From contig OY811972.1 of the NCBI GenBank assembly GCA_963681505.1, positions 13,601,933 through 13,665,932 on the forward strand: a stretch of 64,000 nt of DNA, given 5' to 3'. The notes beneath the pieces were generated by a model. It was given only the letters and a program-made list of their open reading frames with translations, was not told where the DNA came from and did no database searches. The DNA is from Eunapius fragilis. Lineage: Eukaryota; Porifera; Demospongiae; Spongillida; Spongillidae. Below, in pieces: positions 2,141 to 46,317 of this stretch; position 1 is the first letter of the stretch; each line of letters starts with the position of its first letter. The position numbers and the translations under genes are program-made.

Positions 2141-5100
2141 TTATAGACTAGTGACAGCTAAATTATCAGGCTCGCCGTTAAGTGTGTTTTCCGCACTTCG
2201 CTCGCTCACTTCCATGTTGGGCGATAGTTCGGGGGCCTGGGCGCCTCCCACCCGTCCACTCGCAGGTTTCTGCAATTGCGAGAGACGAACAGCTGATGCA
2301 GACAGCGGTGACTGCGAATTGGGGCGCGCAAGTTCAGGGTTGCCTCCACTCTCGTGACTAGCTTGAAGAGTGGCAAGCTCTACGCTCACGGAAGTGGTTA
2401 GCGCATTGGAAGTCCGCGGCCGCACGGAAGAATGATCTGGGCCGAGGACAAGACTATACCGTACCGCAGACTGGCGGCGCGCCGCATCGCGCTCCAAAAC
2501 GGCGCTGTTGCAGATGTTCCTGCTCCGTGCGTTGAGGGACCTCACGTGACCGCTCTCGTTCGACCGCAAGACGGGCAGCGACGACTGAAAGTGAAACCTC
2601 GCGCGAGGGGCGACGCGAGTCGCCGCGGGATCGTGCGGGTGCGGGTCCTCGGCGCTGTACGGCGGCGGCATGGCTTGGTCGATCTGGGCGGGCACGGAGC
2701 ATATGATGTGGTCTTCGGCGGTGGCGAGAGCGACGGTAGGAGCGGCGGGGGTGGAGCTAACGGCGTTGACGGTACCGGTGCTGGCCGGGGGAGGATGCTC
2801 TCTGACGGTATCAAGTCGACACAAGATGCCGGCAGCCGTAAGCCGGGCCTCCGAGTCGTCATCCCAACTGTCCTGGATTGCGGACGTTATCACAGCCATA
2901 TCCTGAGTAGAGGAGCAGTGATTTATCGTTAATAAAACCTCGAAAAACCTAGTGGGAGCTTGTTGTAAACTGCTGATAACTTATTGAAAAACTTATTAGC
3001 TTTGTATAAATTTTAATTGTCTGCCGGTTATAAATGAACTACATAACTCTAAATGGGAGAATGAACGCAAGAAGGGGCCTAACGTTTGACATTCTGGAAG
3101 TTAGATATTGGAAGTTAGATATACAAAATGACTTTTTCGCACTTAAAATCAGATTATAATAGTCCACAGGCTCTTTTGGTACTTGTCACTTTTTTTGAAT
3201 TTATGGGGACTTCATGGCAAATCTGGTGGAACGCCGCTACCATGCAAATGACAAAGTTGCCAATCAAGACATGTACGATATTCGGGTGAATGTCTGGAAA
3301 AGGGTGTACCTATACATGTAAGTTTCGGGACTGAAGATGACACCTGGGTCAGCCTGGGCATAATGGCATAAATGCTTCGATCATTAATCACTTATAACAC
3401 CTTGCAAATTGGTTATTAGAAACATAAATTGATTCTGGTGATTAATTTCGACCAACTTCATTGGTGCGAAAAAGGACTAAATATTGATTACAGCAACAAA
3501 ATTTCTATTTGCCATTTAATTAACCATTAGTAAGCCTTTGCATATGGAGAAATGCGCAGTCAACAAAGTCAGGAATTAATTCACAGTTTGCAGGATCACA
3601 ATGTATTTCTGTAAATCATCCCATAGACAAGTATGGAACATTCAATACCTGCAGGCACACCAGATTTTCCCCAACTTAGCTCCCGAGAGATTGTTAGTAC
3701 AGCACATTTGACGTGATTAATACGAAAGTAATCATATTTTTACTCTAGTTCCATTGAATTGTTGGGCCATGTATGCCAGGTCAATGAGTTGCGTTTCTTA
3801 TCCCCATATTCCACGGTCTATATTCAAAATAGAAAAATTGGTTCCGTCCTCACAGAAGTATTACATGTTGAATCACATGGTTATTCAGTCCCGTACCCAC
3901 AAAATTGTACAACTTCATGCATTATATTATACATGCTCTACATGTAACTGGTGTGTAACTTTCTCAGATGGGATCGGGCTGAGGTGCTGTAGGTAATACG
4001 TAATCGGAAAAGCAGTTTAATCATGGTCTGCCGGAACTTGTATATTACATGTAAGTGGCTCAGATAATGTTATCTTTACTTTCTATTCATATTATTTCTT
4101 GTATGCCATTATTCTATGTAGTGCTATTTATTTCATGTAATGTAATATTACATTTAAAAATTTTTTTTTAATTGTAATATCAGGAACTATCATTACTATT
4201 ATTATTCATAATAAAAACGTGCATTTATTCCAATTCATATACTCTCTTGTATCTTGTTGAATTATAATTTTGATTTAATAATATTAATAGTCATTATATA
4301 TTTAACACACAAGAAACAACAAAGGAAAAAAAAGTTTAATCATAGTGACCAATTCTTACATCACAAAATTGTGACTTAAGTCACTACACATTTCAATGAA
4401 GAAATATGACAAATTTATAAATAACAAACTGTGATTTCGAAACTTCCCTTACACACTGATGTATGTGTGTTCTTAGTAAGCAAATATAAACACTTGGCAT
4501 GCATAACTTTTACAATACTTGGCATTCTCTGGATGTGATCTGACATAACTACTGCATCATTGTGACTTAAGTTTAGAATACTTTTAAAGTAGTAAAACTT
4601 AAAAATCTGCTATCAACTAGGTTACTTTAAAAATACATATTACGATAATAGAGATATCTGCTCTCATAATATAGTGTTATAACTGCCAGGAGATACATCT
4701 TACAGTTTTACCTTCCAATCCCCAAAACAGACATGTAAGACAAAAACAGACATGTCAGACGAAAACAGACATGTAAGACGAAACAGCCCTCATGCTCAAC
4801 GTTTCTTGAAGCAAGCTCAATCATATTCAAAGTGTATTCATATACAATGTAGTGTTGTTATCTGTCTGAACGATCAGCCGCATCAATTGGATCTGTTTAT
4901 ATAAAGGGTTTAAATGTATTTTTAGAATTGTCACAATTTTAAGTCACAATTTCTTGGTTGACAATCCATGATTAAAATGCCTAAGGTACGAAAAATAACA
5001 ATAACTATTTGTAGTTATTACTTGCGATAAGTAATTAAACTTGTCTTGTGTGAAAAATTCAATTCGAATTTTTAGTATTTTCTAAGGCCATTTTGAATTC

Positions 5101-45206: not shown

Positions 45207-46317
45207 CTACTGCTCTAATGTATAGCTTGCTTGAGTCCTTCTTACATACATGCCTGTACCAAAAGCGACAGCAGCGGCAGCAACACAGAACAGAGAAACA
45301 ACAGCAATAATGGTGATGTAATACTTCACAAGTCCTGTATATAGCGATTAAAATGCAGGTATGAAGAATCGAACTATGTAATTAATACATACAGCTCGCG
45401 AGCTTATTTGAACTCTGCATGTAGTATCCCTGTATAGTGCGAACAAAATTATCTTATAAATACACATGGAAGACTGTATCCACTCACAGCTCACGCGACG
45501 CTGAATTGAAACAATGCGGGCGCGCAACTAAACCAATATACACAGCTTAGAAAATGACGCGTACCGACTGTATTAATATTATACATAATTATAGTTATAA
45601 TTGTATATTTATTAATTCGGCTCATGCATTAATTGCTCGCACAGCGTATAACCGGCTACACATGCATGCAAGTACAATGAGTGAGTGCATGGACGAACCG
45701 TTTGCCACGTCGAACTCCGTGGAAGGTTCCAATAGAACAGAAGCGCTCGCTTGTGTAGGAAGCAAATGGAACTTGCTCAATGAAAGCGCTATTGATGGCG
45801 ATGCTGACGGAGAAACATAATTAAGCTGCTGACTACTGGGTGAGATGCTGTAACGCAGCTCTAACATTGTCGTACAGTTCTGGCCATGACAGTTGCAATA
45901 GAAATAGCTCTGCTTAGCCGTTGTCGCACCTTCTCCGATGCAATCGCGACTGCTGGCGCTGTCGTCGCACGAACTCTGTGACGAAAGAGGAATGCAGAGA
46001 GACGAATGAGTGTATTGGCCAGTCGAGTGCGAGTGGATGTACACTCCAGAGCATATCTCGCAGTTTTTGCATTGGGCAATGGTGCAATTTGAAAAGTCAG
46101 CCGAACAGCGCATCTCCGGGGTACCGTCAGTTAAGGAGTTTCCGACGGCGCACGTAGCTGGAACGGAGGTGCACGTGATGCAGCTCTCGGCCCTGCAGTC
46201 CCGGATCCGCGCGAAGCTATTCGGACTTAACCCGCAGCCGCTGGAATCGTCGGGCAGAACGGCTGCGCAGGTTTCAAGCAGGAACGCCACAATGACCAGC
46301 AGCCGCGCTATCTTCAT
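45207..46317 (-). CDS. Kinase-less TGF-beta receptor-like membrane protein
   Basis: The ectodomain exon begins at ATG 46317 with signal peptide MKIARLLVIVAFLLETCAA. It carries the family cysteine pattern: CRAESCITCTSVPATCAV, MRCSADFSNCTIAQCKNC, SLCIPLSSQSSCDDS, CNCHGQNCTTMLELRY. A membrane exon at 45334-45207 (acceptor TATACAG, phase 1) encodes LVKYYITIIAVVSLFCVAAA and a short tail ending SYTLEQ and TAG. The donor is unresolved: CCCA|GTAGTC at 45836 and ACG|GTTCGT at 45698 both give the required phase. If unspliced, the exon itself ends in a weakly hydrophobic segment (SLIVLACM) that might be a GPI signal. Unlike its paralogues, the signal peptide is not split by an intron; an acceptor-like CATACAG sits just upstream of the ATG. 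No kinase. Confidence 0.65.

Follow-up and report, generated by a model that had tools for sequence, protein, structure and literature searches.

Kinase-less paralogues of a TGF-beta type II-like receptor beside a kinase-bearing gene in the sponge Eunapius fragilis

A stretch of 64,000 nucleotides on chromosome 2 of the freshwater sponge Eunapius fragilis (C2:13601933-13665932; assembly GCA_963681505.1, contig OY811972.1), referred to as the window, contains a gene for a type II-like receptor of the transforming growth factor beta (TGF-beta) family and five paralogues that retain the ectodomain and the membrane helix and lack the kinase. The kinase-bearing receptor is named K and the kinase-less paralogues are named A, B, C, D and E. 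The paralogues may be membrane-anchored, type II-derived pseudoreceptors that act as decoys or dominant-negative subunits, a reading to which we give a probability of about 0.55. The six gene models were rebuilt from splice sites, that of C without its first exon, and all plain coordinates are window positions:

2141-14776, minus strand: K, spliced model of a complete type II-like receptor
14737-14776, 13639-14088 and 12258-13036, minus strand: K exons, the second with the ectodomain, the third with the membrane helix and the start of the kinase
10529-10682, 8285-8412 and 2141-2902, minus strand: remaining K exons, the last with the end of the kinase and a long tail
12806-12844, minus strand: TCCACC-rich Ser/Thr-linker repeat of K, limits set by eye, where the homology of A and B to K ends
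19896-21592, minus strand: A, exons 21553-21592, 20449-20913 and 19896-20116, 241 amino acids
23977-25659, minus strand: B, exons 25620-25659, 24602-25057 and 23977-24206, 241 amino acids, a tandem duplicate of A
29558-29757: run of 200 N between the K/A/B and C/D/E parts, with no other N run in the window
33588-35151, plus strand: C, ectodomain exon 33588-34124 and membrane exon 34949-35151, first exon not located
38263-40261, minus strand: D, exons 40252-40261, 38565-39068 and 38263-38408, 219 amino acids
45207-46317, minus strand: E, exons 45699-46317 and 45207-45334, 248 amino acids, the most diverged paralogue

On its domain order and its relatives, K is a full TGF-beta type II-like receptor. 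The predicted product features a signal peptide, the ectodomain, the helix, the kinase and a long tail, and the least certain join of the model is the donor between exons 4 and 5. The Pkinase profile matches K at 7.1e-25. Comparison of the kinase with solved structures ranks ACVR2A first (6.7e-69), followed by ActRIIB (1.1e-63), TGFBR2 (6.6e-62) and BMPR2 (2.3e-60), and the type I receptors come after these type II receptors, from 2.2e-56. The GS box profile (TGF_beta_GS, PF08515) was searched against the genome of 218,937,333 bases in 24 sequences and gave 12 matches at E <= 10, of which 6 are over the cut-off and none is at the K locus; hmmscan of K likewise gave no GS match. These results agree with the type II-like assignment made in a preliminary description of the window. 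Direct reading of the translation reveals the HRD and APE motifs and the ATP-binding lysine, and the DFG position reads DLG, as it does in a type I-like kinase on chromosome 5 (C5). Long GAT/GGT-type and 24-base tandem repeats are seen by eye within the introns of K at 13139-13620 and 9070-9490, and in each of K, A and B a GATGGT-rich repeat opens the intron that follows the ectodomain exon.

The gene models describe A-E as kinase-less paralogues of a type II-like receptor. A tblastn search of the window with the K, D and E ectodomains recovers exactly six places at E <= 1e-3, the six three-finger loci of the preliminary description, and the weakest cross-match among them is 5e-6. The six ectodomains share 24 invariant columns, of which 14 are cysteine. 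In 6/6 genes the ectodomain exon joins the membrane exon through a phase-1 GT..AG junction, as had been described. The paralogues do not contain a type II receptor kinase, since their models stop 10 (D), 11 (E), 25 (C), 38 (A) and 41 (B) residues past the helix, with 2-5 basic residues within the first 12; the tails are thus as short as first proposed, and the range of 9-40 residues becomes 10-41. Two TGF-beta-family receptor kinases were used as tblastn queries on the window at E <= 10 and no kinase was found outside the K exons, where the best match is short and at chance level (E 0.88). This bears out the claim that only K carries a kinase and rules out a recognisable kinase downstream of A-E. 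It was also considered that A-E are parts of K without ends of their own, and this is ruled out by the in-phase membrane exon and stop of each gene. An AATAAA signal lies 345 nucleotides after the stop of A and 178 nucleotides after that of B, and E also has one.

The frames and GT..AG splice sites of A-E are intact as claimed, with the qualification that the E donor, GTTCGT, is weak. Two E-like proteins from elsewhere, P0003 (56% identical) and P0004 (53% identical), are collinear with E, starting at the first Met and reaching the same Asn-Gly at the end of its exon; this comparison covers the ectodomain only. A scan of viral contigs with P0003 returned two stretches that matched the pattern, neither of them a relative. 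In the protein searches with ectodomain queries the best 7993 and 7992 candidates by shared words were scored, so the absence of relatives says little, and two of the three proteins from the first of these searches (P0001 and P0002) are the B and C exons of the window itself. The start of C, placed earlier at 33377, is doubtful. The sequence before 33588 is intron-like, with a GT microsatellite, a polypyrimidine tract and an AG acceptor, and the region 30000-33588 gave no convincing candidate for a first exon.

The type II character of the ectodomains, also part of the first account, is supported by the predicted fold of D and not by profile searches. The AlphaFold2 model of D has a mean predicted local distance difference test (pLDDT) score of 69.2, and the best matches of its ectodomain (Foldseek/VIA) are type II ectodomains with TGFBR2 first, which suggests that the fold of D, the only paralogue examined in this way, is closest to type II receptors. 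The model of E (pLDDT 53.9) is too poor for a structure search. The Pfam profile Activin_recp (PF01064) matched none of the six proteins at E <= 10, in a scan whose HMMER filters discard most weak matches. The Pfam library holds a BAMBI family, and its profile is not among the Pfam matches at E <= 10. An ectodomain profile gave 0 matches at E <= 10 among the sequences of the Protein Data Bank.

The ectodomain identity to K in the window search is 78% for A and 80% for B, and 29-45% for C, D and E. The role of K as parent, presumed earlier for the whole set, is therefore indicated for A and B only, the identity of C, D and E being too low to assign them a parent. The homology of A and B to K in blastn ends at 12824 and 12814, respectively, inside the linker repeat of K. 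Beyond the repeat, A and B share a flank that has no counterpart in K, with the stop at the join, directly behind their counterpart of the repeat, which argues that the loss of the kinase preceded the split of A from B. We infer that it took place in their common ancestor by a rearrangement at or near the linker repeat. The 3' flanks of A and B differ by 7.2% over 1230 aligned sites.

The differences among K, A and B are not uniform along the genes. In the ectodomain exon they are 8.7% (K-A), 8.4% (K-B) and 7.3% (A-B), and in the membrane exon they are 21.0%, 18.3% and 3.4%; the Fisher test comparing the two exons gives 2.8e-5, 4.6e-4 and 0.054 for these pairs. The intron before the membrane exon follows the same pattern (K-A 34%, A-B 2%), and exon 1 with the 50 bases before it differs by 19% (K-A), 23% (K-B) and 6.5% (A-B). 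The short intron flanks of the ectodomain exon, at 48-60 sites each, are more alike in this respect and differ by 19% (A-B), 22% (K-A) and 22% (K-B) behind the exon and by 17% (A-B), 21% (K-A) and 31% (K-B) before it. Gene conversion across the ectodomain exon of K, A and B is the likely source of this pattern, and constraint on that exon would explain part of it; either would have held the ligand-binding exon close to that of the receptor.

Selection was examined with the ratio of nonsynonymous to synonymous substitution (dN/dS; Nei-Gojobori, 95% bootstrap ranges), a check that the preliminary description had proposed and that separates the paralogues. For C the ratio is 0.37 (0.22-0.63) against a dispersed C-like copy over 113 codons and 0.50 (0.25-0.85) against K, and by these ratios C is under purifying selection; the dispersed copy against K gives 0.72 (0.40-1.12). 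The values for A-B (0.68, 0.38-1.30), K-A (0.81, 0.53-1.29) and K-B (0.74, 0.41-1.26) are indistinguishable from 1. Synonymous sites between D and K, A, B, C or the dispersed copy are saturated, so the support for D consists of its conserved cysteines and frame. A phylogeny, likewise proposed, was built from eight ectodomains. In it E pairs with P0003 (100/100) and C with the dispersed copy (84/94), K clusters with A and B (93/92), and D stands apart. The tree is silent on the number of kinase losses.

The six loci lie in the window, in agreement with the array first described, and its continuity is qualified by the run of 200 N. This run is probably a scaffold gap, and the adjacency of the K/A/B part to the C/D/E part then probably rests on scaffolding. 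It was considered that A and B are two haplotypes assembled in tandem, which is thought unlikely because the only N run does not lie between them and they are seemingly on one contig. The family also extends beyond the array. Genome searches at E <= 1 with the D and E ectodomains gave eight places each, namely the six in the window, a C-like ectodomain elsewhere on C2 (from 9885362 or 9885380) and a single weak match per search (E 0.235 and 0.225) that is not counted. In the dispersed C-like ectodomain (C2:9885344-9885823) the frame meets an early stop just past the last cysteines. The window additionally contains retroelement-like open frames at 48095-50414 and 58877-59329, with a 665-amino-acid frame bearing a gag-like zinc knuckle (by eye) and an Integrase_H2C2 match of 1.6e-18. 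A 345-amino-acid open frame at 61073-62110 on the plus strand matches the rhodopsin-family G protein-coupled receptors (7tm_1, 2.4e-16).

A second set of kinase-less ectodomains, of type I-like character, is located on chromosome 5. The genome search with Activin_recp at E <= 10 gave at least 11 places, every one of them within 2.00-2.21 Mb of C5. One is part of a type I-like receptor gene whose kinase, at C5:2002312-2002935, is preceded by a GS match that scored 23.3 bits in the genome search (over the cut-off of 21.3) and 19.7 bits (under it) in another search. This gene features two tandem ectodomain exons, the second of which was found by reading. The other ten places fall into three kinds, with four places of Z, four of Y and two of X, and a third X place was also seen. 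X, Y, Z and the first ectodomain of the kinase gene score over the Activin_recp cut-off, and the second ectodomain scores under it. Z, modelled at one place from signal exon to stop, reads as a secreted single-domain protein. It aligns end to end, at 68% identity, with P0005 (eukprot:Em0003g706a, 123 amino acids), which has a signal-peptide-like start and neither helix nor kinase; this label is taken to denote Ephydatia muelleri on the strength of similarly formed locus names in PMC7385117. In Y the domain runs straight into a stop, and phase-1 linker exons appear to connect X to Y. A tblastn search of the first 200 kb of the C5 stretch found kinase only in the type I-like gene and just behind it, and on C5 neither the genome-wide kinase search nor the GS search gave a further match. 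Two Z copies are identical over 309 bases, as are two Y copies, so the C5 copies may include assembly duplicates, and they represent at least three kinds and not necessarily eleven genes. On chromosome 6, a receptor-like kinase with a membrane helix and without a GS match (C6:7914718-7917499) is 34% identical to K and is perhaps a diverged type II receptor, and C6:166719-171792 holds a divergently oriented pair of type I receptor genes that carry GS boxes.

In TGF-beta signalling, receptors of both types assemble around a dimeric ligand, and phosphorylation of the type I receptor is carried out by the kinase of its type II partner (PMC3169577 and PMC8235796). A-E would bind the same dimeric ligands as K or related ones, or would pair with type I receptors. 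A complex in which A-E occupy a type II position would lack the kinase that phosphorylates the GS box of the type I receptor, and the ligand would therefore be taken out of signalling, with the paralogues setting thresholds as decoys or dominant-negative subunits. A and B would have arisen by duplication of a K-like gene and loss of the sequence 3' of the Ser/Thr-linker repeat, so that their stop came with the new 3' flank; C, D and E would be older. The Z-type genes of C5 would be a secreted, type I-like counterpart. The genome has 22 matches to the TGF-beta ligand domain, some of them perhaps duplicates.

On a wider reading that we offer tentatively and consider somewhat doubtful, membrane type II-like decoys and secreted type I-like decoys may together form an inhibitory tier of TGF-beta signalling in freshwater sponges, with an origin separate from those of BAMBI and of the diffusible antagonists of other animals. 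PMC3169577 reports none of the known diffusible antagonists in Amphimedon, and its table gives Smad6/7 as 0 in the column taken as Amphimedon; in Halisarca an inhibitory SMAD was not found, according to PMC8235796. The sole antagonist family searched in the present genome, Noggin, gave two partial matches just over the family cut-off with internal stops. A clean antagonist-free picture is weakened by the structural look-alikes of CHRDL1 and KCP reported for the freshwater sponge Spongilla in PMC10176882.

Several other explanations were weighed against the decoy function. A-E may be positive co-receptors that present ligand to K and to type I receptors in the manner of betaglycan, or local anchors of ligand. 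The anatomy of ectodomain, helix and short tail would be the same in either case, and sequence cannot separate presentation from sequestration; kinase-less truncations of TGF-beta receptors are usually dominant-negative in experiments, which speaks against co-receptors, and we regard this role as improbable. Of similarly low probability is the idea that A and B are recent truncated copies in the course of being lost, with function confined to all or part of the C, D and E set. The dN/dS values among A, B and K, which are not below 1, and the early stop of the C-like sister copy are in line with such decay. Against it, the coding indels between A and B are multiples of three in 4/4 cases compared with 5/23 in the aligned 3' flank and intron 1 (one-sided Fisher 0.007; small numbers, with the tail repeat and short flank pieces left out of the count), and the cysteines, splice sites and helix of both genes are intact.

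The three-finger proteins may also have been repurposed away from TGF-beta ligands, as Ly6/uPAR-like surface proteins, for example in recognition or immunity. The structural matches of D to type II ectodomains, the linkage to K and the high identity of A and B to K make this a rather remote prospect. The phase-1 phase of every junction would also allow the ectodomain exons of A, B, D and E, which lie upstream of K on the same strand, to serve as alternative cassettes spliced onto the membrane-kinase exon of K. This is very improbable, in view of the in-phase membrane exon with a stop in each paralogue, the AATAAA signals after the stops of A, B and E, the opposite strand of C and the probable scaffold gap between B and C.

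One of the closest known likenesses to the proposed pseudoreceptors is BAMBI of bilaterians, which shares with A-E the architecture of a single-pass membrane protein that has a TGF-beta-receptor-type ectodomain and no kinase. An inhibitory action is a further, proposed likeness. The preliminary description presented BAMBI as a vertebrate pseudoreceptor related to type I receptors; the relationship holds (PMC2657120), and BAMBI is not confined to vertebrates, since PMC2657120 places it probably in Urbilateria and PMC4218986 reports it in Nasonia. The sponge genes differ from BAMBI in that A and B are close to K, which is type II-like and without a GS match, in that the D ectodomain models best as type II, and in their number, five array copies compared with one BAMBI gene. 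Duplications of the ligand-binding domain inside TGF-beta receptors, with an inhibitory function of older extra domains, are described by Jatzlau et al. 2026 (PMC13187141). The change in copy number of a three-finger ligand-binding domain is common to both systems, and the C5 type I-like gene with its two tandem ectodomain exons is a further likeness; however, the extra domains stay within a kinase-bearing receptor in that system and occupy separate kinase-less genes here. Such duplications were reportedly described in sponges by Suga 1999 and in oysters by Herpin, both cited by Jatzlau et al. Type II receptors also occur as soluble or truncated splice forms, which are ectodomains without a kinase, but these come from one gene, whereas A-E are a family of separate genes. 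Duplicates of fish amhr2 can retain the kinase without the ectodomain, which is the reverse of A-E. The duplication of a type II receptor gene is itself shared with the amhr2 of percid fish (PMC11209984). A multi-copy, type II-derived kinase-less family in a sponge was not found among the open-access matches listed, most subscription literature being outside the scope of the search, and the earlier view that such a cluster is undescribed stands within that scope. Kinase-less TGF-beta pseudoreceptors are already known from the type I side through BAMBI, and the type II-derived clustered family would be the new element.

To our knowledge TGF-beta signalling is metazoan-specific, and the genes described here bear on how it was restrained early in its history. 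If the decoy function holds, inhibition by a copied ligand-binding domain would have arisen on the type II side as well, apart from BAMBI. The route would be a plain one, a duplication followed by loss of the 3' end at the linker repeat, and the same genome would hold a parallel type I-like set.

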